Assembly (NCBI GenBank): GCA_017994935.1
Contig: JAGOJU010000001.1
Span: 1-64,000 of the forward strand
Length of the DNA stretch: 64,000 nt
Direction of reading: 5' to 3'
DNA from: Opitutaceae bacterium
Lineage (GTDB): Bacteria > Verrucomicrobiota > Verrucomicrobiia > Opitutales > Opitutaceae
Shown: positions 3,038-32,824 of the stretch, piece by piece
Position numbering within the stretch: position 1 is the stretch's first letter
Layout: every line of letters begins with the position of its first letter
Made by a program: the position numbers and the translations under genes
Notes under the pieces: model-generated
Told to the model about the DNA's origin: nothing
Database searches by the model: none
What the model saw: only the letters and a program-made list of their open reading frames with translations

Positions 3038-4578
3038 TTGAACGCCTCCTCGGACCACACATTTGAGACATCCGTTGACCCTACCTTGACGGCATATTCT
3101 ATTTCCGGCGCATCGCGCTCAGGGAGCCACCGGACAAGCCTGCGTTTCTCAGGAGCAAAACGCGGGTCTGCGGCGAGATTCCTCCACTCGTGGGGATCAG
3201 CGGTGTGATCATAGAGCTCCTCATCGCCGTTACGATAGCGAGTATAGCGAAATCTCTCATCGCGGATCGAGTGGCAACCAGGCCCATACGTGGATAGGAC
3301 GGGCCGCCCGCGATTGCTCCGCGTCTGTCTCAATATTGGCGACAGATTAATACCATCGAGCGAGTGGGTTTCTGGCGCTGGCAATCCACACAAATCCATG
3401 AGGGTGGGATAAAGGTCGATCGTGCTCACGGGTGTGTCGCAAATTTGGGGTGGAAGGCCGGGCACATGCACTGAGAACACAACGCGGCAGCCAAGTTCCG
3501 AGAGGTAAAACTTTGACCAATGCTCCTTCTCGCCATTGTGCCATCCGTTGTCCGAGATCAGCACAACAATCGTATTTTCTCGATACCTGCTTGCCTCAAG
3601 TGCTCCGAGCACCCGGCCGACTTGCTCGTCGACATAACTTATCGACGCAAAGTAGGCTTGCAGACACTTCTTCCATAGGTTGTTGCGGAGGATAAAGGCA
3701 TGCTCGCCCCGGTGGGTCGCCAGCCAGCGGGCAGGTTTGGGCACATCGTCAAGATCCCCCTCAAGACATCCCGCCGGCAACTGGATCGACTCAAGGGGAT
3801 ACATGTCGAAATATCGCTGCGCAACCGTCCATGATACGTGGGGCTTCCAGAAACCGAGAGCTGCGAAGAAGGGTTTGTCATGCTTCTCGCCCAGAAGCTT
3901 GATGACCCGGTTGGCCTGCTCCGTGTCCTGCTGCAACTTCGCGGGATCGTTGAGATCCCAATCATCCGGAAGAATTCCCCAGGACCAGTTGTCCACCCAA
4001 GCCTTGGTCAACGTGCCAAATATGACCTGCCGCAGGAGCGCCTTGTCCGTATAGGTCACGTCCCCCAGCCTGTTGAGCATTTTGTAGAATCCGGGTGTAT
4101 AGTCGCCAATGTCGTCTTCAAGGTATCGATTGTGCGCAATTTTCCCATAACCGGCAGTAAGGTATCCGTTGCCGAGAAATTGTCCCGGCAGGCTCACAGC
4201 CCGGCCAATGGGCGCACGCGTGCGACGATAGGCCTGCTCATTGTAGTAGACTCCCGATCGGGCTGCATGCATTCCGGTGAGGAAAGCGGTTCGCGAGGGT
4301 CCACAGGCGGGCACATCGACATAGGCCCTCGTGAACCACGCACTTCGTGCGGCGAGGCTTTGCATATTCGGCGTGTGGACCTGCGAACTCTGAAAAACAT
4401 CGTGCAGATCTGCACCGTGATCATCGATGATGATGAAAAGCACATTGGGTCTCTGCGGCGCAGCATCGCTGCGCAAAGCTTCCGCACACGAGGCCCGACC
4501 TCCAACGAAGAACTGCGTCAGGACAGAAACCAGCATAATCCGAGCCCATGCCTCCGGCGAGCTGGAGAGGGAGGTCAT
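3034..4578 (-). CDS. secreted type I sulfatase, iduronate-2-sulfatase-like (second in operon)
   Basis: Sulfatase of 514 residues, longer than its downstream neighbour. The order of blocks, IIIDDHG near residue 50, CGPSR near residue 92 (formylglycine Cys), GKIAHN, then SDNGWHNGEKEHWSK, resembles iduronate-2-sulfatase-type enzymes, whose substrates are sulfated uronates. A signal peptide follows the chosen ATG at 4578, which overlaps the upstream stop as ATGA. A frame extending to 4695 would add 39 residues without signal character and lie inside the upstream gene. It is translationally coupled to the sulfatases on both sides. The substrate assignment is inference from overall resemblance only. 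Confidence 0.92.
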   Translation of the reverse strand: MTSLSSSPEAWARIMLVSVLTQFFVGGRASCAEALRSDAAPQRPNVLFIIIDDHGADLHDVFQSSQVHTPNMQSLAARSAWFTRAYVDVPACGPSRTAFLTGMHAARSGVYYNEQAYRRTRAPIGRAVSLPGQFLGNGYLTAGYGKIAHNRYLEDDIGDYTPGFYKMLNRLGDVTYTDKALLRQVIFGTLTKAWVDNWSWGILPDDWDLNDPAKLQQDTEQANRVIKLLGEKHDKPFFAALGFWKPHVSWTVAQRYFDMYPLESIQLPAGCLEGDLDDVPKPARWLATHRGEHAFILRNNLWKKCLQAYFASISYVDEQVGRVLGALEASRYRENTIVVLISDNGWHNGEKEHWSKFYLSELGCRVVFSVHVPGLPPQICDTPVSTIDLYPTLMDLCGLPAPETHSLDGINLSPILRQTRSNRGRPVLSTYGPGCHSIRDERFRYTRYRNGDEELYDHTADPHEWRNLAADPRFAPEKRRLVRWLPERDAPEIEYAVKVGSTDVSNVWSEEAFK

Positions 4579-6104
4579 TTTTTGGAAGGAGCTTTTGCAC
4601 CGCCAGGCTCCGGCGGCCCTGACATCGGGATTATCACTCCCGCACGGCAGGCCCGGAATACAGGCAGCAGAGGATCCCCGGTTTTGATCATCCATGTCTC
4701 CATTTCCCCACGAAGCCGTTCCAGGGTTTCACGGTACGCGGTATTGTCCGCAAGATTCCGCAGCGCATGTGGATCGCTTGTCATGTCGTAAAGTTCTTCC
4801 GGCGTGCGGAACAGAAAGTGCACAAGCCGCTTCGCAATCACGCCATCGGTTCGAGCCGCTTCGATGATGGCCTGGAGCGCTAGTCCCTTGTGAAACTCAT
4901 CCTGGCACTCGGTGGCGCCATCCGACCAGCGGTTGTAGATGTAGCAATACTGCCGCTCATACACGGCGCGGGTCGGCACCTGCTCCCGCAGCTGTGTCTC
5001 ATAGAACGCAGCGAACGCCCGCACTCTATCCTCCTGATCTGCACCAAGGAGCAGAGGCAGAAACGACCTCCCATCCATTTCAGAAGGAGGATGAACTCCT
5101 GCAGCTTCCAGGAGGGTCGGCGCAAGATCAACGCCCCCGACCACTTCATTCATTACCTCATTTTCCCGCGTGCGCCCGGGCCAGCGTACAATCAGCGGTG
5201 TCCGCGTTCCGTTGGGATAGCAGCTAAACTTGGCAAACGGAAAGGCCATGCCGTTGTCTGAAAGGAATAGGACAATTGTATCAGCTGACTGTCCGGAGTC
5301 CTCGAGTGCCTCGAGTATGGCACCGACAGTGTCGTCGCAACGCCGCACTGAACTGTAGTAGTTGGCCACCTCCTCCCGGATATCCGGTATGTCAGGCAGG
5401 AAAGCGGGAACAACCACCTCATCGGTTCGGAATATGCGCGAAGGGCGCCCCATGCCGGCGACCGCCCGTGGCTGGGCCCAATTCCGCTCGTCCGCATTCC
5501 TAGGGTTGTCAATATACTGCCTTTCCTGACGACTGCCTGCGAAAGGCCGATGAGGGTCACGCGCATTGGCCATCAGGAAGAAGGGCCGTCCGCTCTCTCT
5601 TGCAAATTTGATGAACTCTCCCGTTATCCGCCCGTAGCTCTTCGGACTTCGCCCATTGCTGGTATCAGCGTAAGTCTTCGCCCAGCCATACTTCTCAACG
5701 GGCCTCAAGTGTCCGATCTTGTCGATGATGCCACAGACATAGCCCGCCGCCTTCAGCAACTCAGGCACGGTTCTTACCGAAGCCGGCATCAATCCAAAAC
5801 CGGTTGCACCCGTAGAGTGAGGATACCGACCCGTCATCATCACACCCCGACTCGGGGCACACACACCGACCGTAACATATGCATTCGTAAATCGAGTGGA
5901 AACCGAAGCCAGTGCATCGATATGCGGCGTGGTTCCGGGAACCGGACAGCCATACGCGCCTACAGAGTCCCAATTCATATCGTCTGCAGTGATGAGCAGG
6001 ATGTTCGGATGCTCCCGGCCTGCAGCGCAAAGAAAACAACAGTGAGTAGCGGTAAGCAGGGCTGTGATCGCGGCCAAACGGTGAATGAGAGTTCCAATCT
6101 GCAC
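4575..6104 (-). CDS. secreted type I sulfatase (first in operon)
   Basis: Sulfatase of 509 residues with a signal peptide. ITADDMNWDSVG near residue 38 supplies the metal-binding Asp pair, and CAPSR near residue 82 is the formylglycine motif. LSDNGMAF lies near the middle, and a long C-terminal part ends with the ELYDMTSDPHALRNLA block typical of the family. The start is a GTG at 6104, with GGGAG at a good distance, in the 16-bp gap after the TonB receptor. It heads a run of three coupled sulfatase genes, which implies a substrate with several chemically distinct sulfate groups. Confidence 0.93.
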   Translation of the reverse strand: MQIGTLIHRLAAITALLTATHCCFLCAAGREHPNILLITADDMNWDSVGAYGCPVPGTTPHIDALASVSTRFTNAYVTVGVCAPSRGVMMTGRYPHSTGATGFGLMPASVRTVPELLKAAGYVCGIIDKIGHLRPVEKYGWAKTYADTSNGRSPKSYGRITGEFIKFARESGRPFFLMANARDPHRPFAGSRQERQYIDNPRNADERNWAQPRAVAGMGRPSRIFRTDEVVVPAFLPDIPDIREEVANYYSSVRRCDDTVGAILEALEDSGQSADTIVLFLSDNGMAFPFAKFSCYPNGTRTPLIVRWPGRTRENEVMNEVVGGVDLAPTLLEAAGVHPPSEMDGRSFLPLLLGADQEDRVRAFAAFYETQLREQVPTRAVYERQYCYIYNRWSDGATECQDEFHKGLALQAIIEAARTDGVIAKRLVHFLFRTPEELYDMTSDPHALRNLADNTAYRETLERLRGEMETWMIKTGDPLLPVFRACRAGVIIPMSGPPEPGGAKAPSKK

Positions 6105-6120: not shown

Positions 6121-8457
6121 TTAGTAAATGTATGTGAAACTCAATCGATAGTTGCGCTCGCGCGTCACACCTATCGCCGTTTCGTTCTCGCTCGGGAGAA
6201 CCGTGACTTTGTCCAGAACGTTCTCAATTCTCAGGCGAACGTTCCAGCGTCCGCGGGCATACCCAAGAACCGCTGTGTGAATCTCCCCGCCGGGCAACTC
6301 CCAGTTCGTCCGTGTATTGAGCACGCTTTCTCCCCAATGCTGGTATATCCATGAGACCGAGCCTCCGCGAACCTGCCTCCAGGGCAGTTCATATCGAGCA
6401 AGCAATGAAAGCGTGTCAAAGGGCATGGACGACGCCGGCCGCCCGTCGTCAAGTTTCGACTCCATTTTACCATAGGAGACCAGCGCTTCAAGGCCCGGCA
6501 TGGGATTCAGATTCAAATCAAGCTCCCAGCCCCTGGTGGTCCTTGTGCCAACAGGCGCCTGATAGGAACTGATCGGAATGCCGGTCACCTCCCCGGATTC
6601 GTCATTGAAGGTCAGCAGCCCATTGTTCTCCTCTGTGTCGTACCAGGAGCCGGTTGCCACAACACGAGACTTCAGCAGGTCCAACTTGAGCCCCACCTCA
6701 TCCGTGGACGCAATGCGATTCGGAAACCGCTTTCCAAATGTTGCCAGGCGGCGGTCGATTGTGAAAACAGGAGTGAACGTCTTGTTGTTGTTGTAGAAGA
6801 GGGACACGGTTCCGGATTCGCCCTGATAGACCTTTGCGAGGGCAGCCACGCTGCCGGTCCAGGCCGAATCCACAGACTTCTCCGCATTCTGTGATTGGTT
6901 GCCCACGATCTGGGCGGTGACGGTCTTGATTTCACTCCGCCTGGCGCCACCCACAAGGAAAATCCGGTCCTTCAGGAAGGACATCCGCTCCATGACGCCA
7001 ATTCCTGTACCTTCATCATCGCGTTTGATCGTGTTTCGAATCGTACGCACGTTCGCAACATCGAGTATTGTCTGGGGATCGGGTACGAAGGTTGGTGAAG
7101 GCCTGACGACGAAATATACGAGGTTGTTCGCCTGGATCGCGCCGAGGGAAAGGAGAATGGGATTGCTGGTGACATCATACGCATCGTCTTTTGACTCGTC
7201 TTCCGAGGTGCCGTACGTGCCGTAAAACAGCAACTGGTGATTGGTCGGACCAATCTTGAACCTGAAGTTCACATCGACCGCGAAATCTTCTCCATCTGTC
7301 AACGAAGGCCGGAAGTCGTACCTCACCTGCCTGCGCGCAACTGCAGCGAGCGTGCCCGCGACGGCCGAATAGGGCACGTTGCGGGAGTCCTGTCCGATGA
7401 GTCGGTCCTCGCCGTCGAGAAACACATCCGTGCCGGGCCCGATGCCTCGAATACGACTCGCATCGCTCTGGAGCTTGTACTTCCTTGCAACCGCCCTCGC
7501 ATCGACCTCCGCATGTGCGAAAATCAGCGTTTTGACCGCACCCACCTCATAGTTGTCCGACTTCACCTCCACAAGGTTGTTATAGATATTGTTTCCACCA
7601 TTGAGTTCCGCTTCCTCGATGAGCGCTCTCCCGCGCCCTGGGCCATCTAAGAATCCGTGGACGGTACGCGTCAGCCGGTTGCTGCCGTCGCGCACGATGG
7701 CAGCCCAGGCCCAGATCTGAAGCCCGTTGTCAAAGCGATACGAAATACTTGGGTTGTACGCCTGGTAGCCACCGTCCGGCTCCGCCTTGAAACGCACCGG
7801 ACCAGCTGTGTCAGAAACTGCCGTCGAGAGGCGGTACCCCAACTTTCCCGCGTGGTCGATGAATCCGGAGTGATCCAGTTCGAATCGCCAGGTATCATAT
7901 GACCCGCCGATCCCACTCAGCATCGTTCGTGGTCTGGCCAGGGGCCGCTTGCTGACGAAGTTAACAATGCCTCCCGGACTGTGCGAGCCGTACAGGATGC
8001 CCGATGGTCCTTTCACAACTTCAATCCTTTCGATGTAGGAATAGTCGAAACCACCCGCAGCAGATATGACACGATCAGCGAAGCCATCCCGCTGTGCACT
8101 TGCCACGAGATAGCCACGCATTGAGAACAGATTCTGCGTCGTTGTACGCGCAGATATGCTGATGCCTGAAACGAGACCAAGCGTGTCTTCGGGGGATAGA
8201 GCCACCGTATCCTGAATCAGCTTTTGATTCAGCGTTATGACAGAGGCCGGCAGTTCTACGACGGGAACAGCTACGCGCGATCCCGAAAGCGACGACGTCG
8301 TTGCATACCCCCGCTCCGCCTGGGAAGTGACTTCAAACGCGGAAAGCACGAGCGGTTCGTCACCTGCGGGCTCCGGAACCCTGGACTGCCCCCAAACGAA
8401 GGGAGCAGCCGATGAGACAATTGCGACAACAAGCACGGGAATTGAATTCGCTTTCAT
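6121..8457 (-). CDS. TonB-dependent outer-membrane receptor
   Basis: A 778-residue TonB-dependent receptor. A signal peptide is followed by a TonB-box-like segment (LVLSAFEVTSQ). A plug domain follows with ERIEVVKGPSGILYGSHSPGGIVNF at about residues 150-175, then a 22-stranded-type barrel ending in the aromatic YIY. It should import a glycan fragment across the outer membrane using TonB energy. The frame could begin at a TTG at 8481, but the ATG at 8457 gives a proper signal peptide. No SusD-like partner accompanies it, which is usual outside Bacteroidota. It is the first gene of the sulfatase/sialidase operon and diverges from the GntR/LacI regulator at 8618. Confidence 0.93.
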   Translation of the reverse strand: MKANSIPVLVVAIVSSAAPFVWGQSRVPEPAGDEPLVLSAFEVTSQAERGYATTSSLSGSRVAVPVVELPASVITLNQKLIQDTVALSPEDTLGLVSGISISARTTTQNLFSMRGYLVASAQRDGFADRVISAAGGFDYSYIERIEVVKGPSGILYGSHSPGGIVNFVSKRPLARPRTMLSGIGGSYDTWRFELDHSGFIDHAGKLGYRLSTAVSDTAGPVRFKAEPDGGYQAYNPSISYRFDNGLQIWAWAAIVRDGSNRLTRTVHGFLDGPGRGRALIEEAELNGGNNIYNNLVEVKSDNYEVGAVKTLIFAHAEVDARAVARKYKLQSDASRIRGIGPGTDVFLDGEDRLIGQDSRNVPYSAVAGTLAAVARRQVRYDFRPSLTDGEDFAVDVNFRFKIGPTNHQLLFYGTYGTSEDESKDDAYDVTSNPILLSLGAIQANNLVYFVVRPSPTFVPDPQTILDVANVRTIRNTIKRDDEGTGIGVMERMSFLKDRIFLVGGARRSEIKTVTAQIVGNQSQNAEKSVDSAWTGSVAALAKVYQGESGTVSLFYNNNKTFTPVFTIDRRLATFGKRFPNRIASTDEVGLKLDLLKSRVVATGSWYDTEENNGLLTFNDESGEVTGIPISSYQAPVGTRTTRGWELDLNLNPMPGLEALVSYGKMESKLDDGRPASSMPFDTLSLLARYELPWRQVRGGSVSWIYQHWGESVLNTRTNWELPGGEIHTAVLGYARGRWNVRLRIENVLDKVTVLPSENETAIGVTRERNYRLSFTYIY

Positions 8458-8617
8458 GGGGATCGGGGTTCTGGACTGCAATGGTTGGCGGGCTCACTCG
8501 CCATCCTGAAGCATGGCGTTGCCTCCAAACATTGGAATACTGGAATCCTGGTCATCTCGCCTTACCAGAACGCCGAACTCGCCGCAGTCCCCGCATTGAT
8601 TCATTCTGCCGGTGGCA
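8458..8617. promoter_or_regulatory. divergent control region with 8-bp tandem motif
   Basis: This 160-bp gap separates the minus-strand TonB-receptor operon from the plus-strand regulator operon, so it must hold both promoters. At 8531-8554 three 8-bp units follow one another: ATTGGAAT, ACTGGAAT and CCTGGTCA. They could be contacts for the regulator encoded next door. I cannot place -35/-10 boxes with certainty. Neither candidate start of the regulator has a clear Shine-Dalgarno. Confidence 0.3.
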
Positions 8618-20202: not shown

Positions 20203-21258
20203 TCATCGCAGGGACTGTCCTTCGAACCAGGATCCTTCAACATGGGTGCGTATCGGGAGCTTGGGTAGACCTCTTTCCTCTCGCGACACCATGCCCACCA
20301 GGAGATCCACAGCAACCGACCCGAGCTGAAGTGAATTTTCGACCACGCCGCTAAGCCTGCCGCGCTTGGCCTGGAGGCTCAAACCTGCGACGCCGACATC
20401 CCGTGGAGCCTCCATTGCCGCCATCTTCAGGGTTGTGAGCAGATGATAGTCGGATGTGACGATCGCATCCAGTTTATGGGTGCCGATATATTGACGCAGT
20501 TTTTGCGCATCGTTGAGTCGCTCGGCCGATTCACGATTGTCATGCACAAATGGGATGTAACAGGGAGGAATCGACGAGAGCTTCGAATCAACCAGTTGTT
20601 CAACCAAAAACCCCGCACATACGTTCGAACCGCATCGTAAATCGGTATTCTGGTCTGTCACTAGGCCGATTCGACGATATCCTCTCCTCACCAATTCCTG
20701 AATGGCATGCCGGGTATTGAGATAATGAGCCGATGCCACCGTATGGAGGCATGGCCGTATCAAGCTGTAGCCAAACGTGACGACTGCAAAACTCTCCCAG
20801 GGAAAATCCATCTCCATGTCATGCCTGGCCTGGGGACACAAAAGAATGCCGGTGATATTTCGCGCGCGAAGGATGGATGAAAGACGCCGTGACGGCAGGT
20901 TCGCATCCAATATGAATTTCTCGATCTGATAGCCGTGGGACTTTGCCCGTTCGGATGAACCGGCAAAATATTGCCCATACGGACTTTTTTCATCCCAGCC
21001 ATGACCCCAGTCAGTTCCATGGGAGGAATTCACAAGCCAGGCCAAAGTGCCTTGGAAGGATTTCGGCCGTGCATTGCTCCGATAAATCGCCAAGGCCGAC
21101 AGCATGGGATCCGGCACGTAGCCGAGTTCCTCGGCGACTCTAAGGATGTGTTGTTTTGTCTCGCTGGCCAGCCCCGGATGGTTCTTCAACGCAAACGAAA
21201 CCGTGCTCCGACCGACGCCCGCCTTGCGGGCAATGTCTAGCTGGGTAACGCGTGTCAT
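20203..21258 (-). CDS. LacI-family transcriptional regulator
   Basis: A 351-residue LacI/GalR regulator. The N-terminal helix-turn-helix and hinge read TQLDIARKAGVGRSTVSFALKNHP and then VAEELGYVPDPMLSALAIYR, followed by a periplasmic-binding-protein-type sensor (RRGYRRIGLVTD, DAIVTSD, VGVAGLS). It lies divergent from the heparinase-like gene with a 275-bp gap that contains the palindrome AAGCGCTT, a typical LacI-family half-site pair. It probably represses the lyase/TonB-receptor locus at 21.5-30 kb until an oligosaccharide is present. Confidence 0.92.
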   Translation of the reverse strand: MTRVTQLDIARKAGVGRSTVSFALKNHPGLASETKQHILRVAEELGYVPDPMLSALAIYRSNARPKSFQGTLAWLVNSSHGTDWGHGWDEKSPYGQYFAGSSERAKSHGYQIEKFILDANLPSRRLSSILRARNITGILLCPQARHDMEMDFPWESFAVVTFGYSLIRPCLHTVASAHYLNTRHAIQELVRRGYRRIGLVTDQNTDLRCGSNVCAGFLVEQLVDSKLSSIPPCYIPFVHDNRESAERLNDAQKLRQYIGTHKLDAIVTSDYHLLTTLKMAAMEAPRDVGVAGLSLQAKRGRLSGVVENSLQLGSVAVDLLVGMVSREERGLPKLPIRTHVEGSWFEGQSLR

Positions 21259-21316: not shown

Positions 21317-21533
21317 CTGTGTCAATAGGGGGGCGATGGCAATCCAATCTCCCCGCCGTCCAAACTGAGGTCAGTTTCAAAATGGCTGGCAGGACTCTTT
21401 CCCCAAAGTTCGATTCTGTCTCGTCAACGCGAAAGGGCAATCGCCGCGAAATGACGTTCAGCCTTGCCTGCTTGCGCCCGCAGTGCGCTTTCACCCAACG
21501 AATCCGAGAGCAAATCTTCACCGTCCTTTTGTG

Positions 21534-23522
21534 ATGAAACCACACCACTACCTCCGTTGGTCCATGAAGCAGGGTGCGAGATTCCCGCTGCTGGGATTGC
21601 CACAATTGGCCTGCTCCATCGTCCTGGCGCTTCCTGCCTTGGGAGCTGCCGAACACCAGTGGAATCCACCCCGCCTGGCATACTCGACGTCCGCCTATGA
21701 ACTCGCGGAATTGCTTCCGCGGGGATTGCATCGCTGGAATCGATCCGATCTCGAGACAATGATCCACCAGCGGGTGGCGTATGAGAAGAGTCGTCGGGAA
21801 CTCGATGTCGACTACTATCGAATCGGCTACGTGCTTTCATTCCCGCTGCCCCTTGCACAGAGGCCGCGCCTGCAGGAAATGCCTCAGGGAATCGACGGCA
21901 TAAAGTATCCATGGACGATTTGGTTGTCCTGGGACCTGTCGGAACGCTGGAGGATCCTGCACCTCGCCTGGCGGAGACTGGGAGACCAGGCAGCCGGCGA
22001 ACTGATGCAGCAAGAAATGGGAGCGCTGGCCAAATGGGACCACATTTATGAGGTGACCGACCAAGTCAGCCTTCCAACGGGCCATCTCGCGGCGTGCCTG
22101 GCCATGGCCCTGCAAAATCCGGAGGGATGGGACCCGCAACTCCGACAGGCTGCCCTCGCTGCAGCCAATGCCATCATTGATCGCGATGTCTGGCCGTGGT
22201 TCTCCAAGCAATGGGGACCACCCAAGGCCCTCGCGGAAAAGCAACTGCAGAACATTCCCGCCATCGCGCTTCTCGGGTCCGCCCAATTGGCCCGAATATT
22301 GGAAAACAGTCACGCCTCCGAACTGGACGCGCGCGCCGAAGATGTCGTTCGAACCTGGTGCCAGATGCGTTTGGGGCCGGAGTTTCACTGTGAAGGGCAG
22401 GCGTACGACGGCTACCTGCTCGACAGCATAACCGAATGGTTGGAGAGCCTACCCAATCGCACGCAACTGCTCGCCGACTTCGGCCCGGCTCTCCGCAATG
22501 CCGCCGAATCATGGATGCAGGCGACGCTGCCCGGGAGAATGGACCTGCTTGCGCCGCTGGGTGACGTCGAACCCGAAATGAACTTCTGGCCAACCCCGCT
22601 GGCTCGCATGACTGACTGGTATCGGTGGTCCGACGCCCGATGGTTCCTCGAACGCTATCCCCTTCAGAGGATGCGTTCCGCCACCCTGACAGAGCTTTTC
22701 CTCAATCCAGCTTCAGGCACCGCCTCCGGAATTGCTCCCTCAACGAAGCCGAAGGAAATGGCGAACTATGCCGTTTTCCGCACCGGTTGGGACAGCAATG
22801 ACATGGCTCTGATTGTCAGTTTGAGCCGGAGCATCATGCACCACCTTCATGCCGATAGCGGCAGCATCATCCTAGGCTGGCAAAACCGGTTCTGGATCAC
22901 GGACCCCGGTTACCAGCAGTACCGCAAAGGTGAGGAGCGGAACTTCACCCTCGGAATCCACGCTCACAATGCACCCGTAGTCAACGGGGTCGCACAAACG
23001 AAGCCCGCAGCTAGGATCAACTCGCTGTCCATGCCTTCACCGCATGAACGAAAAGTGAATATCGACGTCACCGCGTGCTACACGGGTCTGCCGGCAAACT
23101 CCCTTGTAACCAGGGAAATCGTGATGATTGATCGACCGTTCCGCGTAGCAATCGTGCGTGATGCCCTGCGCGGCTTTCCGGCGGGGACTCAGGTCTCCAC
23201 GTCGTGGCAAGGGGGAGCGTTCCTGGCGTGGTCGTTTCCGGATGGTTGGGCACGCATGAGCGACGGAGAAAACACCTTATGGATTTCCGCCCACCCAATA
23301 AAGCCAAAGCCGGCCGACTTGATCCGCCACCCCGGGAGCCGTGGAGAGCTGACATTGACTCACACCGAGACTCTAAAGGAAGGCTCCGGTGATGTCTGGT
23401 ACCTTCTTGTCTGTGGGCAGACAGGGGACTGGAAACCGCCATCGGTCATGCACCAGCCCGGTGAAATCGTGATCACAACCGCCGCGGGTTCCATCAGGCA
23501 GACAATAACCCCAATTCAATAG
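21534..23522 (+). CDS. heparinase II/III-family polysaccharide lyase
   Basis: A 662-residue exported protein. The N-terminal half is alpha-helical (an alpha/alpha toroid with EFHCEGQAYDGY near the middle). The C-terminal half has the Hepar_II_III block HLHADSGSIILGWQNRFWITDPGYQQY ... AHNAPVVNG. Family enzymes (PL8/12/15/21-like) cleave uronate-containing polysaccharides by beta-elimination; His and Tyr in these blocks are the usual catalytic candidates. I chose ATG 21534 over an upstream in-frame GTG at 21483; a hydrophobic signal follows MKQGARFPLLG. It is divergent from the LacI regulator and 138 bp upstream of another secreted protein. Confidence 0.85.
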   Translation: MKPHHYLRWSMKQGARFPLLGLPQLACSIVLALPALGAAEHQWNPPRLAYSTSAYELAELLPRGLHRWNRSDLETMIHQRVAYEKSRRELDVDYYRIGYVLSFPLPLAQRPRLQEMPQGIDGIKYPWTIWLSWDLSERWRILHLAWRRLGDQAAGELMQQEMGALAKWDHIYEVTDQVSLPTGHLAACLAMALQNPEGWDPQLRQAALAAANAIIDRDVWPWFSKQWGPPKALAEKQLQNIPAIALLGSAQLARILENSHASELDARAEDVVRTWCQMRLGPEFHCEGQAYDGYLLDSITEWLESLPNRTQLLADFGPALRNAAESWMQATLPGRMDLLAPLGDVEPEMNFWPTPLARMTDWYRWSDARWFLERYPLQRMRSATLTELFLNPASGTASGIAPSTKPKEMANYAVFRTGWDSNDMALIVSLSRSIMHHLHADSGSIILGWQNRFWITDPGYQQYRKGEERNFTLGIHAHNAPVVNGVAQTKPAARINSLSMPSPHERKVNIDVTACYTGLPANSLVTREIVMIDRPFRVAIVRDALRGFPAGTQVSTSWQGGAFLAWSFPDGWARMSDGENTLWISAHPIKPKPADLIRHPGSRGELTLTHTETLKEGSGDVWYLLVCGQTGDWKPPSVMHQPGEIVITTAAGSIRQTITPIQ

Positions 23523-23660: not shown

Positions 23661-25436
23661 ATGAATCGAAGTGCCATGAACCCAATATTCCGCCTGACCC
23701 TGACAGGGTGCATCTTTCTGACCGCAAATATATTTTCCGTCTGTGCGACAACTCTTACATTCAAGGATCGCCTGGAGCCCCGATTAGTCGGGATGATTCC
23801 CGAGCTGATCAAAGAGTTCAGCCCCGAGACCGGACGTTTCAAACAAGGACCTTTCGACGCTCGTGGCCAGGACCCAATCTACACCCTTGCGACAGTCTAT
23901 TCGCTCAACTTCGCAGGCAATCCTTACTACAAGAGCCACGAGATCCTAAACATGATCATCGCAGGCGGTGATGCCCTGATCCGAGAACAGGATGACAGGG
24001 GGATGTGGCCATTCAACAAGAACGGCAGTTACTGGGGACAGACCTTCATGTGCTGGACGTATTCCCGCTGGATACGCACCTATATTATAATCAAGGCCGA
24101 CATGCCAGCCAACCAAAAGAATCGCTGGGACAGTGCCCTCAGAAAAGGCTACGAAAGCATCAGCAGGACCGAGCTCAAACGAATCACCAATATTTCAACC
24201 CAACTGGCCACCGCCTTGTATATGGCTGGCCTGGCATTCGACAGGGAGGACTGGAAACTTCAGGCTACGGACTTCCTCCATCGCGTGATTGCCACCCAGC
24301 ACAAACCCGGATACTGGAGTGAACATCTGGGACCGACGGTTATATATAATTATGTATATACCGATGCCCTTGGGATTTATTATGCCTTCTCCCGGGATGC
24401 GGCTGCGGCCAGGGCACTGGAGAGAGCATCCGCGTTCCATCTGAACTTCACCTATCCAGACGGAAGCAATATCGAAACCGTGGACGAACGAAACCCCTAC
24501 CATGCCGGCGCCAGTTACAACCACAACCTGGGATTCTCCTATTCACCCGAGGGCAGGGCTTTTCTTTCCAGGCAGTGGGACAATCTGGACTGGAAGCTTT
24601 CAGCAGACGCAATTTCATCCTACCTGCTCTATGGCGAGGAGGGCCCAATGGTCATCCCACCCAGTGAAAACACCTATGCGCTGGTCGAAGATGGAGCGCC
24701 ACGCGCGACCGTCACCCGAAAAGGTCCATGGATTCTCGTCATGTCGGCCTACACCTCTCCTCTGGTTCAGGACCGCTGGATACAGGATCGCCAGAATCTG
24801 GTGAGCATCTGGCATGATTCGACAAAATTGATTCTCGGTGGTGGCAATACCAAACTCCAACCAGCTTGGAGCAACTTTACGGTGGGCGACATGCACGTGC
24901 TCCGCCACACGCCTGGAGAAGAGCGTCCCGATTTCGCTCCGAAAGGGGAACTCTATTGGATCCCAAGTCACGCAACAATCACCAATGGTGATTTTCCTGC
25001 GCTTGCCCTGACCTACGGACCCGTGCAATGCCAGATTGCCCTCAAGCCCATCGATGCAAATCGGCTCAAATATGAAGTCTCGGCCAAGAGCGAAACCCCG
25101 CTCACGGTGCTCGCTCACCTCACACTGATGCCCAAACTGGGAGCAAACCTGAATACATCGGGCGGATATCGGGGCAAGCTGGAGAGCACAGCGATCGAAC
25201 TTGATTCTGCCCGGCTTGGAAATGGCATGGAATATGGCGACATCCAACTGGAACTACCGGAAGGAACAACCCTACATTGGCCAGCACTGCCGCACAACCC
25301 CTATATGAAGAACGGTCACTCCGATCCGAAAGAGGGTCGGATCGAGCTGCGTATACCATTGGTTCCAAATGGAACATCGAAAACGGTGACTTTGAGGATA
25401 AAGCCCGCCGAATTCGCAGAAAAGGAAGCCTTGTAG
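23661..25436 (+). CDS. secreted protein of unknown family, lyase-like architecture
   Basis: A 591-residue protein that I cannot assign. It has a signal peptide (MNPIFRLTLTGCIFLTANIFSVCA). A helical region follows with tryptophan- and tyrosine-rich repeats (MWPFNKNGSYWGQTFMCWTYSRW near 115; ISTQLATALYMAG near 180; YWSEHLGP near 215; NIETVDERNPYH and YNHNLGFSY near 270-290). The C-terminal part is beta-rich. Alpha/alpha toroid plus beta-sandwich is the layout of several polysaccharide lyase families, and its place between a heparinase-like gene and a TonB receptor supports action on the same glycan. A second ATG at 23676 is possible. The local sequence is AT-richer than in neighbouring genes. 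Confidence 0.75.
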   Translation: MNRSAMNPIFRLTLTGCIFLTANIFSVCATTLTFKDRLEPRLVGMIPELIKEFSPETGRFKQGPFDARGQDPIYTLATVYSLNFAGNPYYKSHEILNMIIAGGDALIREQDDRGMWPFNKNGSYWGQTFMCWTYSRWIRTYIIIKADMPANQKNRWDSALRKGYESISRTELKRITNISTQLATALYMAGLAFDREDWKLQATDFLHRVIATQHKPGYWSEHLGPTVIYNYVYTDALGIYYAFSRDAAAARALERASAFHLNFTYPDGSNIETVDERNPYHAGASYNHNLGFSYSPEGRAFLSRQWDNLDWKLSADAISSYLLYGEEGPMVIPPSENTYALVEDGAPRATVTRKGPWILVMSAYTSPLVQDRWIQDRQNLVSIWHDSTKLILGGGNTKLQPAWSNFTVGDMHVLRHTPGEERPDFAPKGELYWIPSHATITNGDFPALALTYGPVQCQIALKPIDANRLKYEVSAKSETPLTVLAHLTLMPKLGANLNTSGGYRGKLESTAIELDSARLGNGMEYGDIQLELPEGTTLHWPALPHNPYMKNGHSDPKEGRIELRIPLVPNGTSKTVTLRIKPAEFAEKEAL

Positions 25437-25767
25437 TCTGACCCAAACCGCCAGTCGCAACAGTCATTTTTCGGCGAGAAAAGCGTGAATCCCGCTGAGT
25501 CCGGAAGATTGAACTGCTGAAGGCCGGCGGACAGGGAGTCCGGGAACGTTCCTCACCCGCAGCTCCGCTTCCGCAACGCTGCTGGCTCTCAATCGCCTCG
25601 CCCTTCGATCGGCCTGACCTGTGTCAAGTATCCGAACGTTGTCTCGAACACGCAATCCGCAAGAAGGATCTCTCAGTCTCGGGTGGCTCACGTCCATTGC
25701 GGACGGCCTCACCCTTGTCTAAGCATTCATCGCAATCACCCAGCCCCGCCAACCGAAAGGCCTTTCA
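25437..25767. other. intergenic region before TonB receptor
   Basis: A 331-bp gap with no supported gene; the 82-codon frame on the minus strand is uncharacteristic. It probably contains the receptor's promoter. AACGTT occurs around 25637, but I see no convincing operator. An AAAGG ribosome site precedes the receptor ATG. Confidence 0.45.
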
Positions 25768-28611
25768 ATGAAACGACGTTACACTGCTTTGCTCGTCCTG
25801 CTCCCCCTCCTGATCAGCCAGAGTTCACGACTCGTGGCGCAAAGCCGCCCGACAGGAGCTGTGGAGCAAACCGCCGAAAAAGCCTCTGAAGCCGCGCCCA
25901 TCAAACTTTCGCCGTTCGTGGTTTCGACCGACAAGGACACCGGATACATTGCGGCGGATACGTTGAATGCGGGTCTGCTGAATACAAATCTCCTGATGAC
26001 GCCCGGCGGCATTGATATTTTTACCCGTGATTTCCTGAATGACATCGGAGCAACCAACATTGATGAAGCCTCCGGCTGGCTGACCAGTTCCCGCCCGCTC
26101 GAACTGGGAGCAGTCGAGGGGAATAGCGTCGATCCAGGTGGACTGAACTACTATGATTCGGGAACCAATGTTTCCCTGCGCGGACTCGGCGCCAATCCCA
26201 GCACCCGAAACTATTTTGCAAGCGCATCGACTCCCAAGGAATACAATGTTGAACGTGTCGAATCTGCGCGCGGACCGAATGCAATCCTTTATGGGGAAGG
26301 CGGTCCCGGCGGAGGTGTGAACTACATCACCAAGAGGGCAAAAGGCTGGAACTTCACGACCCTTCGCCTCCGGTTCGATGATGACTTCTCCAAAGGTGTG
26401 TCCTTGGACGCAAACCGAAGGCTGCGACACAATCTGGACGTACGCTACAATCTAAACCTGCAGGACACAAGGTACTACATCGATCGCACCAAGCTGACCG
26501 AACAGGGGCAGTCCGTGACTTTGACGTACAGCCCATTCGAGCGTACCAACGTCATCTTCGACGCAGACTATTCGCGCAATACGCGCCCCAGTCTGATCAT
26601 GAACTATCTCGATCGCTATTCCAGATGGGATCACCAGCCAGTGACTGGAAAGCTTTCTACATCGGCCGCAACGGCGAAGGGATTGACGAATTTAACTGGT
26701 TCGAAATACATGATATGGACCGAAGGCATCGGCCTGCTCGATTACGCAGGCTACGCAACAACCAACGGCGTGGGCGTAACCCAGGCAGCAGAGGCCGAAT
26801 TTGGAGATGCCCTGTTCCCCTCCGTTGCAGCCGCCTCGGGCGCACCCGGGGTAAGCGCAGTTCCAACACTACCGCGCAATTTCAATGCCAATCCGGAAAA
26901 CCAATCAGTTGTCGACAAGGCAACCGACATCCAACTCTCGATAGATCATACATTTCAAAACAATCTTTCTCTTCAGCTCGCCGGACAGTACTCCTATTTT
27001 ACCAGCCAAGGTGGCAACTATCCCTTCTCGATCATATACATTGATCCCCTATTCACCCTACCCAATGGGCAAAACAATCCAAACTACGGGAAACCCCTAT
27101 CCAGGTCACACATTGGTCGGCGAGTGGACTATACGCGGGAATCCAAGTCCATTCGTTTTGTCACAGCCTATCCCCTGAAGCTATTTGGAGGGGTCACGAC
27201 CTTCAGCGCCTTTGCCATACACCAGGAAAAGAATGACACGACAATCTATACCGACCTGCACATCAAAGACCCTTCGTCCACGCTGCCGATAACGGATGGA
27301 GCCAGCCTTATCCGGGTCAACCGGTATCTGGACAATCTACCCGCAAAGCTTCCCGATTTTTCCGCACTGTACGACACGGTCGACGTGCCGACAGTCGATG
27401 CCAGAAACAAACAGAAGACAGACGCGTATGAAGTCGCAATGTCAGGAAACTATTTGAAAGATACCCTCTCAATAATCGCGGGTTATCGGCGCGATCGCTC
27501 CGAACTCGACAACCAGAACGGAGTAGCGTCATCCCGCGATCCCAACACCGGACAATTTACGTCTTACGCCACCGACAGCCGGTTGGGCTTCAATGATACG
27601 ACCACCTACGGATTCGTCTACTTTCCCACGAAGATCCTTGGGGTCTACGGAAACCATTCGGAAGGATTCATAATCCAGTCTGCTGCCTACAAACGTCTGG
27701 ATGGATCCTTCTCAAAAGCGAATATTGTTCCCGCCGGTGAAAAGGCCGCCGGCCTTCGTTTCCAGATAGGAAACAATCAGGGGATCAAGATCATCGGCTC
27801 CGTCGGCTATTACCGTGCAGAGCAGACAAACCGCGTCAGGAACATCTCGATCGGCAACATCAATATCCTATGGAATGACCTGGGAGAGTATGACGGGAAG
27901 GACTATTCCAGCAATTACATATCCACCTACAGCAACAATCCGCTCACGATCACGAGCCTGAATTCGATAACGAGCTCATCGAGCCTTGTGGGGTACGGCT
28001 GGGAGGGCAGCCTCACCGCAAACTTCGGAAAGGCTTTCCGCCTTACGATCAATGGCGCGCTCCCCAAAACAAAACAATCGGACGTCGCAGCTGACTACGT
28101 ACGCTACGTGAATGAGAACAGGTCAAAATGGCAGGTCCTGGCCAACAATCCTTCGAATCCGAACAATGTCCAGGATACGAATCACATCAACCAGATACAA
28201 AGCTTCATAGACAGCTTCCAGGAAGGACGCTACCAGAATTATACATACGACTATCGCGCGAATGTATTTGGGGTATACACCTTCACTTCCGGCCGCCTCA
28301 AGGGGCTGAGGATTGGTGGCGGTGTGCAGTTCTACGGACCCTGCATTGCTGGAAACGAACCCGGTCGCCCATTCGACTACGTTTATGCCAAAAAGTATCA
28401 TCTGGCAAGCGCCCTGATCGGATATCCAATAAATATTGGAAAATACAAGGCTGACATCCAACTCAACGTTTCAAACCTCTTTGACTATGATGACCCTATC
28501 GTGAACGGGGTATTTGCCTATAGCTTTCAAGGCAGCGTGCAAAACGTACCATATGGGACTAAGAACATCTGGCCGCGATTGGTTCGTTTCACGATGAACC
28601 TGCCCTTTTAG
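25768..28611 (+). CDS. TonB-dependent outer-membrane receptor
   Basis: A 947-residue receptor. A signal peptide ends around VAQS, followed by the TonB-box-like IKLSPFVVSTDKDTGYIA characteristic of Opitutaceae receptors. The plug domain contains VERVESARGPNAILYGEGGPGG at about residues 165-190. The barrel ends with a terminal Phe (FTMNLPF). It should import the oligosaccharides produced by the lyases encoded just upstream. It is about 20% longer than the receptor at 6121 and has no SusD-like partner. AAAGG lies 7 nt before the ATG. Confidence 0.93.
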   Translation: MKRRYTALLVLLPLLISQSSRLVAQSRPTGAVEQTAEKASEAAPIKLSPFVVSTDKDTGYIAADTLNAGLLNTNLLMTPGGIDIFTRDFLNDIGATNIDEASGWLTSSRPLELGAVEGNSVDPGGLNYYDSGTNVSLRGLGANPSTRNYFASASTPKEYNVERVESARGPNAILYGEGGPGGGVNYITKRAKGWNFTTLRLRFDDDFSKGVSLDANRRLRHNLDVRYNLNLQDTRYYIDRTKLTEQGQSVTLTYSPFERTNVIFDADYSRNTRPSLIMNYLDRYSRWDHQPVTGKLSTSAATAKGLTNLTGSKYMIWTEGIGLLDYAGYATTNGVGVTQAAEAEFGDALFPSVAAASGAPGVSAVPTLPRNFNANPENQSVVDKATDIQLSIDHTFQNNLSLQLAGQYSYFTSQGGNYPFSIIYIDPLFTLPNGQNNPNYGKPLSRSHIGRRVDYTRESKSIRFVTAYPLKLFGGVTTFSAFAIHQEKNDTTIYTDLHIKDPSSTLPITDGASLIRVNRYLDNLPAKLPDFSALYDTVDVPTVDARNKQKTDAYEVAMSGNYLKDTLSIIAGYRRDRSELDNQNGVASSRDPNTGQFTSYATDSRLGFNDTTTYGFVYFPTKILGVYGNHSEGFIIQSAAYKRLDGSFSKANIVPAGEKAAGLRFQIGNNQGIKIIGSVGYYRAEQTNRVRNISIGNINILWNDLGEYDGKDYSSNYISTYSNNPLTITSLNSITSSSSLVGYGWEGSLTANFGKAFRLTINGALPKTKQSDVAADYVRYVNENRSKWQVLANNPSNPNNVQDTNHINQIQSFIDSFQEGRYQNYTYDYRANVFGVYTFTSGRLKGLRIGGGVQFYGPCIAGNEPGRPFDYVYAKKYHLASALIGYPINIGKYKADIQLNVSNLFDYDDPIVNGVFAYSFQGSVQNVPYGTKNIWPRLVRFTMNLPF

Positions 28612-28922
28612 ACATCATCAGGGTTGCCGGGCAAATCCATCAAGAGTCTGACAGCAATGTTTGGCCCGGTCGGGTGACCCTTGATGGCCGTCCGCGTCAG
28701 GCACCTCGCGTGGCCGTGCCAAGGATTCAAGCGTCCGGCATTCCATCCAAGGGATCGGCATCCCCCGCATATTTGAGTGAAATCGATTCTATACTTAAGG
28801 GGAATTCAGTTTGAGGCTGGTATCAGGAACGCGATGCCTCCGATTGAACTCCTTCGTTCCTTGTGACCGTGCAAATGCAGGAGTTTTCAGCTTGAGACCC
28901 CATCTCATCTTTGGATTCACAT
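28612..28922. other. intergenic region, no gene seen
   Basis: A 311-bp gap between the TonB receptor and the dehydrogenase. A loose pairing between GCCGGGC near 28627 and GCCCGGT near 28665 is the only candidate transcript end. No coding frame is convincing. Confidence 0.4.
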
Positions 28923-29990
28923 ATGCCTTCAACCAAACAGATGCCACCCGCGGTAGTGCCTGCAAACACCGCGTTGGACAAACAGGTCCAGCATCTCTTA
29001 TGTGCCATATCAGAGGAAGAAGGTCGGCTTTTCCTTGGACAGAATACCTGCAGGCTCGAGGCGCTTCCGCTCAAGGTGAGTTGGGCCGGGAACCCACCGT
29101 CGGTGGACTGGCCATCCTCACTGGTGAGGCTGAATCCGGAGATCCTGCTGACCGGCTGGTCTACACCGCCCCTTGATGTTCAATGGTTGGACTCTGAAGA
29201 ATGCCGGTTGCGTTATATTTGCCATCTGGCAGGCTCTATTAAATGGCTTGTTCCCCGTAGCTTCATTGAACGCGAGGGAATCGTGACAAACTGGAGCGAT
29301 ATCCCGAGTTCGTCTGTGGCTGAGCAGGGTCTCCTGCTTGCGTTGGCGGCGCTCAGGAACAGCGGGCAGTGGCTGGAATTGATCAGAGGCAAAGCAAAAA
29401 ACGGCAACCGAATTGAATGGCTGAACACCCTTACCCTGTTCCGTCGAAATGTGGGGATCCACGGATTCGGGCGTGTCGCCCGCGAATTGATCAAGATCCT
29501 GCGTCCGTTTGACGTAAAGATTCGCAGCTATTCTCATGGCGTACCCAAAGCGATGTTTGACGCGGCAGGAGTGATTCAGGCCGAAACTCTTGAATCGATG
29601 TTCAGGGAAAGCGATGTGCTCTTTGAGTGTGAGGCCTTTACGCCGCATACCTCTGGTGCCGTTTCTGCTGATATCCTCGCAATGCTGCCCAACAATGCGG
29701 TGTTTGTGAACGTGGCTCGCGGGGGTCTGGTCGATGAGGGGGCGCTTCTGCGCGAGGCAGCGTCAGGACGGATAAGGGTAGCCCTCGATGTGGTAACCTC
29801 AGAGCCCGTGGACATATCCTCCCCATTCCTTGGCCTGAGCAATGTCGTCATGTCTCCGCATATCGGCGGCCCAACCTTTGACCAATATACGAGTTGCGGA
29901 GAGTTTGCCGCAAAAAACATAGTCCGATATACGCAGGGCAAGCCCCTGGAAGGGATCGTTTCTTTGGAGGAATACGATCGCTCAACTTGA
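28923..29990 (+). CDS. D-isomer-specific 2-hydroxyacid dehydrogenase
   Basis: A 355-residue NAD(P)-dependent dehydrogenase. The nucleotide-binding domain has GIHGFGRVARELIKIL at about residue 180. The catalytic Arg is in NVARGGLVDE, the Glu in DVVTSEPV and the His in SPHIGGPT, so the full triad is present. Enzymes of this family reduce 2-keto acids or oxidise D-2-hydroxy acids. The N-terminal substrate domain is divergent and gives no substrate. The frame could start at TTG 28911; ATG 28923 is preferred. It closes the LacI/lyase/TonB-receptor cluster and might handle a keto-sugar acid released from an unsaturated uronate, which is inference. Confidence 0.85.
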   Translation: MPSTKQMPPAVVPANTALDKQVQHLLCAISEEEGRLFLGQNTCRLEALPLKVSWAGNPPSVDWPSSLVRLNPEILLTGWSTPPLDVQWLDSEECRLRYICHLAGSIKWLVPRSFIEREGIVTNWSDIPSSSVAEQGLLLALAALRNSGQWLELIRGKAKNGNRIEWLNTLTLFRRNVGIHGFGRVARELIKILRPFDVKIRSYSHGVPKAMFDAAGVIQAETLESMFRESDVLFECEAFTPHTSGAVSADILAMLPNNAVFVNVARGGLVDEGALLREAASGRIRVALDVVTSEPVDISSPFLGLSNVVMSPHIGGPTFDQYTSCGEFAAKNIVRYTQGKPLEGIVSLEEYDRST

Positions 29991-30202: not shown

Positions 30203-30326
30203 TTGCCCGACGCGAATTGCCTGGGCATTTAGGGACCCCTGCCGATCAATGGATTTGTCCGATCCGGCAACGAATCGATTCGCACCGTTTCTTCACACTC
30301 CTCACACTTTCAGCTTCCCCCACATC

Positions 30327-31799
30327 ATGGCAATTCCTTCCTCCCCTTGGAACCGTCGGCGCTTCCTTGGCACTGCGGCTTTGGCCACCACCGCAGGCTT
30401 GGCCGGCCGCCTGCGTGCCGCCGCCAACCTGAAATCTCCAGCCTCCGACGCCGTGCGGATCGGCATCATCGGACTGAGCACCAAGGGCGCTGATCATCTC
30501 AAGAATCTCCTCGCGACTCCGGGCGCACGCATCGCAGCGCTCTGCGATGTCGACCCGCGCACACTCGCAGCCGCCGTTTCCAGCCTGCCCGCCGGCATCC
30601 CCCGCCCCTTCACCACGACAGACGCACGCCTGCTGCTCGAGCGAAACGACGTCGATGCGGTCGTCATCGCTACCCCGAACCACTGGCACGGCCTGCTGAC
30701 GATCTGGGCGCTGCAGTCAGGCAAACACGTCTACGTCGAAAAGCCCATGTCCCACACCGTGCATGAGGGCCGCGCGATGATCGAGGCCGCAAATTCCTCG
30801 GGCAGGGTGGTCCAGGTCGGTACCCAGCGTCGCACGGATGCCGGCCTCGCGGAGGCCGGGGAATTCATCCGCTCCGGCAGACTCGGCAGGATCACCCACA
30901 TCCACACGGTCTACTACAGCCACCGCACCGCCGTGAAGGAAACACTGCCATGGTATCCCGACTGGCTGGACTATGATCGTTTCTGCGGCCCGTCACCGGT
31001 CGTTCCACTCAAACGTGAGAAGCTTCACTACGACTGGCATTGGATGTGGGACACCGGCAACGGCGAATTGGGCAACAACGGCGTGCACGTGCTCGATCTC
31101 GCTCTCGCGCTGGTCAAACAGAACCGGCCTCCCCGCCGTGTCATGGCCCTCGGGGGGCGCTACGTGGTCAATGACGTTGCAGAAACGCCCAACTCGATGT
31201 TCGTGCTCTACGACTATGAGGACTGTCCCATCTTTTTCGAAAGCCGGGGACTTCCCGCAAGGAGCGGCGTCACCTACTCGGACAATTATCTCGGAATACG
31301 CGTGGGCACGATCGTGCATTGCGAGGGCGGATACCTTACCGCACTCACGGGGGCCTCCGCCTACGACAGCAAGGGAAAACTCGTCCGCAAGTTCAACGCG
31401 GACGGCGGATCCGCGCACATGTCGAATTTTCTCGATGCGGTCCGCCGGAATTCCCCTTCATCGGTCAACGCCCCGCCGTCCGTCGGACACCTGTCGGCGT
31501 CGGTCTGCCACTACGGCAATATCTCCTACCGCCTGGGAACACCCGCCGCGGCCGACTCGATTGAGCGTCGCATCGCCTCTTTCAACGCGGCTGATCCGCT
31601 GCTGAAGAGCTTCCTTGTCCACCTTCGCGCAAACGGCGTCGACCCCGCCCGCCAGCCGCTCACTGTGGGGCCGTGGCTGACTATCAATGACGGGAATGAC
31701 GACATCGTCGGGCTTGATCCCGACGACCCGGATCTGCACAACCGGGCTCGATTCCTGTTACACGAGTCCGCCCGCCCACCCTATCTCCTGCGGGCATGA
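30327..31799 (+). CDS. Gfo/Idh/MocA-family oxidoreductase, Tat-exported
   Basis: A 490-residue oxidoreductase with a twin-arginine leader (NRRRFLGTAALATTAGLAG). After the leader comes a Rossmann fold (IGIIGLSTKGADHL), DAVVIATPNHWHG and the EKPMSH block, where EKP is the conserved motif of the family. NNGVHVLDLA then gives the putative catalytic His region. Such periplasmic proteins oxidise or reduce sugars with tightly bound NAD(P); the substrate is unknown. I use ATG 30327, since the frame from 30249 adds residues before the Tat leader. It overlaps the next gene as ATGA. Confidence 0.88.
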   Translation: MAIPSSPWNRRRFLGTAALATTAGLAGRLRAAANLKSPASDAVRIGIIGLSTKGADHLKNLLATPGARIAALCDVDPRTLAAAVSSLPAGIPRPFTTTDARLLLERNDVDAVVIATPNHWHGLLTIWALQSGKHVYVEKPMSHTVHEGRAMIEAANSSGRVVQVGTQRRTDAGLAEAGEFIRSGRLGRITHIHTVYYSHRTAVKETLPWYPDWLDYDRFCGPSPVVPLKREKLHYDWHWMWDTGNGELGNNGVHVLDLALALVKQNRPPRRVMALGGRYVVNDVAETPNSMFVLYDYEDCPIFFESRGLPARSGVTYSDNYLGIRVGTIVHCEGGYLTALTGASAYDSKGKLVRKFNADGGSAHMSNFLDAVRRNSPSSVNAPPSVGHLSASVCHYGNISYRLGTPAAADSIERRIASFNAADPLLKSFLVHLRANGVDPARQPLTVGPWLTINDGNDDIVGLDPDDPDLHNRARFLLHESARPPYLLRA

Positions 31800-32824
31800 C
31801 GACCATTTCAATTTCCTCCATGCGTTCACTCAATCCCTTCCGCCTCCTTCTCCTTCCCTGCATGCTTTCGCTCGCTTCACACACGGACAACCTTGTCGCC
31901 GCCCCTCTGAAGATCGGCATGATTGGATTGGACACCTCGCACACCGTTGCATTCACCAAAATGCTGAACGATGCCTCGGATCCGAATCACATTCCCGGCG
32001 CCACCATTGTCGCCGCCTTTCGCAGCGGAAGCCCGGACATGCCGGAGGACAGCATGAAGCGGATCCCCGGCTTTGCGAAGGACCTTGCCGAGAAATACAA
32101 TGTGATGCTCTGCGCTTCGATCGAGGAGGTGCTCAGGCAGGTGGACTGCGTCATGATCGAGAATGTGGACGGACGAAAACATCTGGAGATCGCCAAGGTC
32201 GTCTTCCCAACCGGCAAGCCCGTGTATATCGACAAGCCTCTCGCCGGAACACTTGCCCAAGGCCTTGAAATTGTGGCTCTCGCGAGGAAGCATCACGTTC
32301 CTTTCTTCAGCGCCTCATCGCTCCGTTACGTCGATTCCGTGACCCAACTTCCTGCCGCCACTCGCTCAAACATCCATGCCCTGACAAGCCACTCGCCGTG
32401 CAAGCTCGAACCCCATCATCCGGACCTGTTCTGGTACGGTGTTCATGGCGTCGAAACGCTCTATGCGATTCTCGGCGCAGGTTGCGAGACGGTGGCACGT
32501 GTCCACTCGCCGGACATGGATGTCGTGACCGGAGTCTGGAAGGACGGACGGACCGGAACATTCCTGGGGTATCGCAACGCATCAGCCGGCTACGGCTTCA
32601 AGGCGCTCCTGAAATCAGGCGTGCTCAACGAGGATTTCAAGGCGGACTACGCTCCCCTTGTCAGGCAAATCGTCCGCTTCTTTCAGACACGCCAGCAACC
32701 GGTTTCCAACGAAGAGATGATCGAGGTGCTCGCCTTCATGGAGGCAGCCGATGAAAGCAAGCGACAGGGTGGCAGGCCCGTTGCCATTGCCGACGTGCTT
32801 CGGGCGCACCGGGGCCTGAAGTAG
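31796..32824 (+). CDS. Gfo/Idh/MocA-family oxidoreductase, exported
   Basis: A 342-residue relative with a Sec-type signal peptide ending near LVAAPLK. The Rossmann segment reads IGMIGLDTSHTVAFTKML, with a divergent glycine pattern, and YIDKPLAGT replaces EKP with DKP. HGVETLYAILG lies in the C-terminal domain. The changed motifs suggest an altered cofactor mode or non-redox role. ATG 31796 overlaps the previous stop (ATGA); ATG 31820 would still leave a complete signal peptide. The pair is coupled and probably acts together on one sugar. Confidence 0.82.
   Translation: MTTISISSMRSLNPFRLLLLPCMLSLASHTDNLVAAPLKIGMIGLDTSHTVAFTKMLNDASDPNHIPGATIVAAFRSGSPDMPEDSMKRIPGFAKDLAEKYNVMLCASIEEVLRQVDCVMIENVDGRKHLEIAKVVFPTGKPVYIDKPLAGTLAQGLEIVALARKHHVPFFSASSLRYVDSVTQLPAATRSNIHALTSHSPCKLEPHHPDLFWYGVHGVETLYAILGAGCETVARVHSPDMDVVTGVWKDGRTGTFLGYRNASAGYGFKALLKSGVLNEDFKADYAPLVRQIVRFFQTRQQPVSNEEMIEVLAFMEAADESKRQGGRPVAIADVLRAHRGLK

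Follow-up and report, generated by a model that had tools for sequence, protein, structure and literature searches.

The gene at positions 23,661–25,436 (+ strand) of the window, as we call the whole 64,000-nucleotide stretch of DNA analyzed here, raises the question of what a 591-residue protein outside the named families does among genes for glycan use. An earlier sequence-only reading had placed it between a heparinase-like lyase and a TonB receptor, and domain searches confirmed that setting, with Hepar_II_III_C (PF07940) on one side and Plug on the other. We propose that the gene product is probably a secreted (periplasmic or surface) lyase, a distant relative of polysaccharide lyase family 8 (PL8) in a family outside the Pfam and NCBIfam models, and that it likely cuts an acidic polysaccharide at uronic acid by beta-elimination.

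A lyase-like family outside the domain libraries

The open reading frame starts with ATG and has no internal stops. It is real and not a chance frame, because full-length homologues (73–75% identity) occur in two other Verrucomicrobiota assemblies and the family is found across the phylum; both assemblies share with the window the order LacI regulator, heparinase-like gene, query gene. A single-sequence search of 384 genomes from the class found relatives with 25–44% identity in 24 of them, and a profile search that included more distant matches found relatives in 30 of 387 genomes of the phylum. All relatives belong to this phylum, to which deep sampling was restricted and which alone the profile search covered. 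The source genome (G000) carries the family as a single copy. Four members stand in tandem in one genome (G500; L081, 6684–14634, −).

That no named family fits the protein, as the sequence-only reading had stated, was upheld for the Pfam and NCBIfam libraries, in which the query had no match at E ≤ 1 and its relatives had no convincing one. The best sub-threshold Pfam match among relatives was PF07944 (GH127; E = 0.0085, 2 of 26 relatives), and other single-member matches had E > 0.02. The PL8 models PF08124, PF02278, and PF02884 matched neither the query nor the members of alignments A1 and A3 at E ≤ 1, and PF16332, PF07940, and PF16889 matched neither the query nor the scanned relatives at that threshold. 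Sequence and profile searches of the PDB found no solved chain belonging to the family; the best profile match was a short stretch of the PL17 lyase AlgL17 (9irq, E = 0.0014) around residue N177. A PHROGs search with the query returned nothing useful, plasmid records held no match to the query and viral contigs no relative, and a viral structure library yielded only distant ODV-E66-type chondroitin lyases. Annotation with Pfam and NCBIfam leaves the family nameless, although several of the phylum's lineages carry it and it lies in glycan-use loci.

The word "undescribed", used of the family at the outset, is borne out within Pfam, NCBIfam, the PDB, and the open-access literature that was searched. 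It is possible, if somewhat doubtful, that the protein already sits in a CAZy family or subfamily that has no Pfam model, such as PL29, PL37, or an outlying PL8 subfamily. Opitutales genomes have been reported to carry PL29 and PL37 alongside PL8, PL33, and PL35 (PMC13274419), which favors this explanation, whereas the failure of the PL8 Pfam models at E ≤ 1 and the lack of a PDB chain from the family speak against it, although neither bears on PL29 or PL37.

Fold of the query protein

An AF2 model of the query, built from an 18-row alignment (pLDDT 87.9, pTM 0.87), has helices at residues 35–324 and strands at residues 337–580, that is, an alpha/alpha toroid followed by an antiparallel beta-sandwich. 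The same architecture had been read from the letters alone, and the model, Foldseek, and VIA all agree with it. On the + strand, the toroid domain (approximately residues 35–325) spans 23,763–24,635 and the beta-sandwich domain (approximately residues 335–583) spans 24,663–25,409, with VIA alignments extending over residues 32–584. The hydrophobic N-terminal segment (residues 1–29; 23,661–23,747, +), which is followed by VCA/T, is a probable signal peptide, and residues 1–28 are disordered in the model (pLDDT < 50). Among the family's relatives, a set of ~530-residue proteins (L018–L026 and L032) combines the Asn, Tyr, and Arg that are invariant in the toroid with a different C-terminal half, marked by CFDRNxWHYKIIDFPSG near the start; these proteins have no Pfam match.

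The fold search that had been suggested as a check put PL8, PL17, and PL35 lyases topmost in Foldseek. The best PDB match was the PL8 xanthan lyase 1x1h (E = 2.8 × 10−13), and the top matches were uronate lyases aligned over both domains (1x1h, the PL8 chondroitin AC lyase 2wda, PL17 7bjt, and PL35 8khw); after the PL8 xanthan and chondroitin AC lyases, the ranking continued through PL17, PL35, hyaluronate lyase, human dermatan sulfate epimerase 1 (DSE1), heparinase III, PL33, PL15, and PL39. In full-length VIA alignments, where rows less than 1 Z apart count as tied, the PL35 enzyme GAGase VII (8khw) reached Z 20.2 (rmsd 4.0 over 463 residues; TM 0.57), and chondroitinase 9o3q, DSE1, and Alg17C stood at Z ~19; PL8 is absent among the VIA matches listed, a listing that excludes no family. 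The toroid alone is unspecific, because toroid-only VIA matches to sugar epimerases score equally high.

Profile comparisons point to the PL8 branch

We compared a family profile (A3) with those of candidate parent families using hhalign. Against 20 PL8 proteins of the same phylum, chosen as PF08124 matches, the family aligned over 429 columns covering both domains with probability 95.1 and E = 3.2 × 10−8, an E-value that applies to a single comparison and becomes ~8 × 10−4 after correction to a Pfam-sized library. Reversed and column-shuffled PL8 controls each gave probability 0.1. The PL35-like profile (DUF4962) matched with probability 71 over the toroid only. Probabilities were 1.6 for PL5-type alginate lyases, 0.9 for the neighboring heparinase-like family, and 0.6 for PL33. 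PL33 was ruled out as the parent family, with a range of 0.4–2.7 against 22 PL33-like proteins; although it shares the fold and occurs beside the family in other genomes, the PL33-like protein is a neighbor and not a sequence-level relative. PL35-like and PL33 profiles found each other with probability 99.4, and PL8 and PL35-like profiles did not detect one another (0.4).

We tentatively raise the idea that the query represents a new polysaccharide lyase family bridging the PL8 and PL35-like branches, matched at 95% and 71%, respectively. If so, the family would be sequence evidence that PL8-type and heparinase-II/III-type toroid lyases share an origin, and would present a PL8-like active site within a small beta-domain free of a metal site.

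The likeness to PL8 (chondroitin AC, hyaluronate, and xanthan lyases; PF08124/PF02278) includes the two-domain fold, the best Foldseek match, and the best profile match over both domains. The query nevertheless differs from PL8 in having only ~15% identity, no Pfam Lyase_8 match, and 591 residues against 670–770 for most solved PL8 chains. PL35 (GAGases II and VII) resembles the query in fold and Asn–Tyr spacing and weakly in toroid profile, but the query lacks the HxHxD...DPG segment and a PF16332 match, and its beta-domain was not aligned by the profile. PL17 (Alg17C and AlgL17) likewise shares the fold and supplied the sole PDB sequence match; it differs in that the His following its Asn is Ile178 in the query, in which the heparinase-type beta-domain signature is also missing.

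A candidate active site

The catalytic residues of the PL8 chondroitinase AC (1cb8), which we take to be N175, H225, Y234, R288, and E371, were located by counting along the chain. The A3–PL8 alignment pairs query N177 with the PL8 Asn, position 223 with the His, Y233 with the Tyr, G298-R299 with the G-Arg, and R372 with Glu371, and also pairs N379, P401, and W403 with a PL8 Asn, Pro, and Trp. Of these equivalences, G298-R299 (24,552–24,557, +) recurs in the A1, A2, A3, and core-only profiles and Y233 in A2, A3, and core-only. N177 (codon at 24,189–24,191, +), the candidate charge neutralizer, is exact in A3, shifted by one position with A1 and with A2, and misplaced in the core-only profile, so that its equivalence draws on conservation and the PL17 match no less than on the alignment with PL8. 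The candidate catalytic His and Tyr lie in the loop E221-H222-L-G-P-T-V-I-Y229-N-Y-V-Y233 (24,321–24,359, +), which resembles Q-H-G-P-L-L-Y-N-G-G-Y of a PL8 protein (L100). H222 lies one residue from the position aligned with the PL8 His; a relative (L042) reads ENHGP and has its His at 223, the exact PL8 place. The counterpart of Glu371, Arg372, is Arg in most members.

The conserved residues are mostly not those that the sequence-only reading had clustered into a site. Its YNHNLGFSY (286–294) is a variable loop in relatives, where only G291 and the following GR (298–299) are conserved, and in NIETVDERNPYH (270–281) conservation covers D275, R277, and Y280 without extending to H281; the site candidates that are conserved lie elsewhere, at N177, in the E-H-x-G-P-x3-Y-N-x2-Y loop (221–233), and at R299.

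In the core of the tree (20 rows), Asn177, His at 222 or 223, Tyr229, Tyr233, and Arg299 occur in every member. In a well-supported clade nested in this core (L045, L046, L048, and L049), the Asn, the His, and the two loop Tyr have disappeared together and the beta-domain signature (DRQN/GGGN.K.QP) is retained. By its residues this clade is probably a non-catalytic offshoot, and the joint loss suggests that the site is one functional unit, a suggestion drawn from few events because the tree requires two label changes. Outlying relatives keep Tyr229 and Arg277 with a Thr at 233 or a missing His; since they keep Y229 without H222 and Y233, the wider superfamily may include a different chemistry. 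By analogy with the Asn–Tyr spacing of the heparinase clan, which is near that of N177–Y229, Tyr229 may be the older position.

That spacing also underlies an unlikely alternative, in which the protein is a lyase using a heparinase-clan triad (Asn177, Tyr229 as acid/base, and beta-domain His385) in place of the PL8-type His/Tyr pair. The query spacings of 52 (N177–Y229) and 156 (Y229–H385) are close to those of GAGase II (N192-Y246-H401; 54 and 155) and Alg17C (N201-Y258-H413; 57 and 155) (PMC12088678), Y229 is conserved more widely than Y233, and among PDB sequences AlgL17 alone gives a meaningful match. However, the HxHxD...DPG segment that holds the catalytic His and metal site of the heparinase-II/III clan is absent, and its place is taken by DRQNxxSxxHxxxGLxxGGGN, part of a beta-domain signature (DRQNxxSxxHxxxGLxxGGGNxKxQPxWS, residues 376–405; 24,786–24,875, +) whose PL8 equivalent is NxEN...P.WDW. 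H385 comes after the DRQNxxSxxH segment rather than in the place of the catalytic His and is missing in some core members, while the PL35-like profile matched the toroid only and PL33 not at all. We retain His385, picked as the catalytic His by spacing alone, only as a rival to the PL8-type site, since the clan signature is absent.

Genomic setting

Directly upstream of the query gene lies a heparinase-II/III-type lyase gene (21,531–23,522, +; PF07940, E = 1.6 × 10−12; alignment A5). Its product has the triad Asn241, Tyr292 (in EGxxY), and His438 together with Asp442 and DPG, models as a toroid plus sandwich (pLDDT 77.6), and finds its best Foldseek matches in PL35, PL15, PL12, and PL33, with PL8 far lower. 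The query had been described as lying "under a LacI gene"; such a gene is present (20,203–21,258, −; PF00356, E = 6.4 × 10−12) and occupies the same place in two related loci (L001 and L002), but it is separated from the query by the heparinase-like gene and runs divergently, so that the wording was only loosely apt. Downstream of the query are a TonB-dependent receptor (25,768–28,611, +; Plug, E = 8 × 10−6), followed by a D-isomer 2-hydroxyacid dehydrogenase (28,911–29,990, +; PF02826, E = 2.4 × 10−36) and two Gfo/Idh/MocA oxidoreductases (30,249–31,799 and 31,796–32,824, +; PF01408).

The sequence CTGTGTCAA occurs exactly twice in the 64 kb, on the same strand, in the gap between the LacI and lyase genes (21,317–21,325, +) and in that between the query and TonB genes (25,619–25,627, +), and recurs at matching places in L001 (2778) and L002 (5687 and 9913). 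It is a possible shared operator or promoter element, with evidence of modest weight because it was picked by eye. A LacI palindrome kept in all three lineages was looked for and not found, and scans for promoters and terminators did no better than chance.

In four other genomes a PL33-like gene stands next to the family member, directly upstream in three (G003, matching BT4410 with E = 1.5 × 10−40; G020; G047) and as a fragment at a contig edge in G054. The lineage with this upstream gene is 42–44% identical to the query, so that in it and in the window lineage the family stands beside heparinase-clan lyases of different kinds. In another genome (G618) the neighbor is a BNR_4 protein, a domain that occurs in some ulvan and rhamnose-glucuronate lyases. 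No GH88/GH105 (PF07470) unsaturated uronyl hydrolase was found in the source genome, although it has lyase genes. As the usual glycosaminoglycan pathways need such enzymes, this absence counts mildly against one here, but the assembly is 89.9% complete.

Proposed function

The lyase call made from the letters stands, on the basis of the uronate-lyase fold matches, the lyase-rich setting, and the conserved Asn, His, and Tyr at a plausible site, and the family probably works like PL8. We do not file it as PL8 because the Pfam models fail and Glu371 is missing. In the mechanism that we infer, an acidic polysaccharide would bind in the cleft between toroid and beta-sandwich and be cleaved at uronic acid by beta-elimination, with Asn177 neutralizing the C5 carboxylate, His222 and Tyr233 serving as base and acid, Tyr229 lining the same loop, and Arg299 supporting the tyrosine. 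The putatively exported query and the neighboring heparinase-II/III-type lyase would probably act on one substrate, the TonB receptor would import the unsaturated products, the downstream dehydrogenases may process them, and the cluster would be under LacI control. If active, the family would add an enzyme for acidic polysaccharides and a case on which to test the relation between PL8 and heparinase-type lyases, and a locus that combines lyases from two different branches offers a directly testable two-enzyme system.

A non-cleaving enzyme on the lyase scaffold, such as a uronyl C5-epimerase, is very improbable: DSE1 (6hzn) does match both domains (VIA Z 19.3, 481 residues), but PL8 fits better by sequence and the TonB receptor, second lyase, and sugar-acid dehydrogenases of the cluster fit catabolism. 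Slimmer still is the chance of a glycoside hydrolase or a non-catalytic glycan-binding protein, as might be read from toroid-only VIA matches to epimerases and GH88-type enzymes, the weak PF07944 matches, and the side clade without site residues, since GH127 fold matches are poor (TM ~0.3) and the query lineage retains all candidate catalytic residues. A GH127 identity, hinted at in 2 of 26 relatives, was rejected with that poor fold match.

Elsewhere in the window, three sulfatase genes whose products have SGSH_C domains stand side by side (1715–6104, −), with a BNR exo-sialidase-like gene (436–1668) and a TonB receptor gene (6121–8481) as neighbors.
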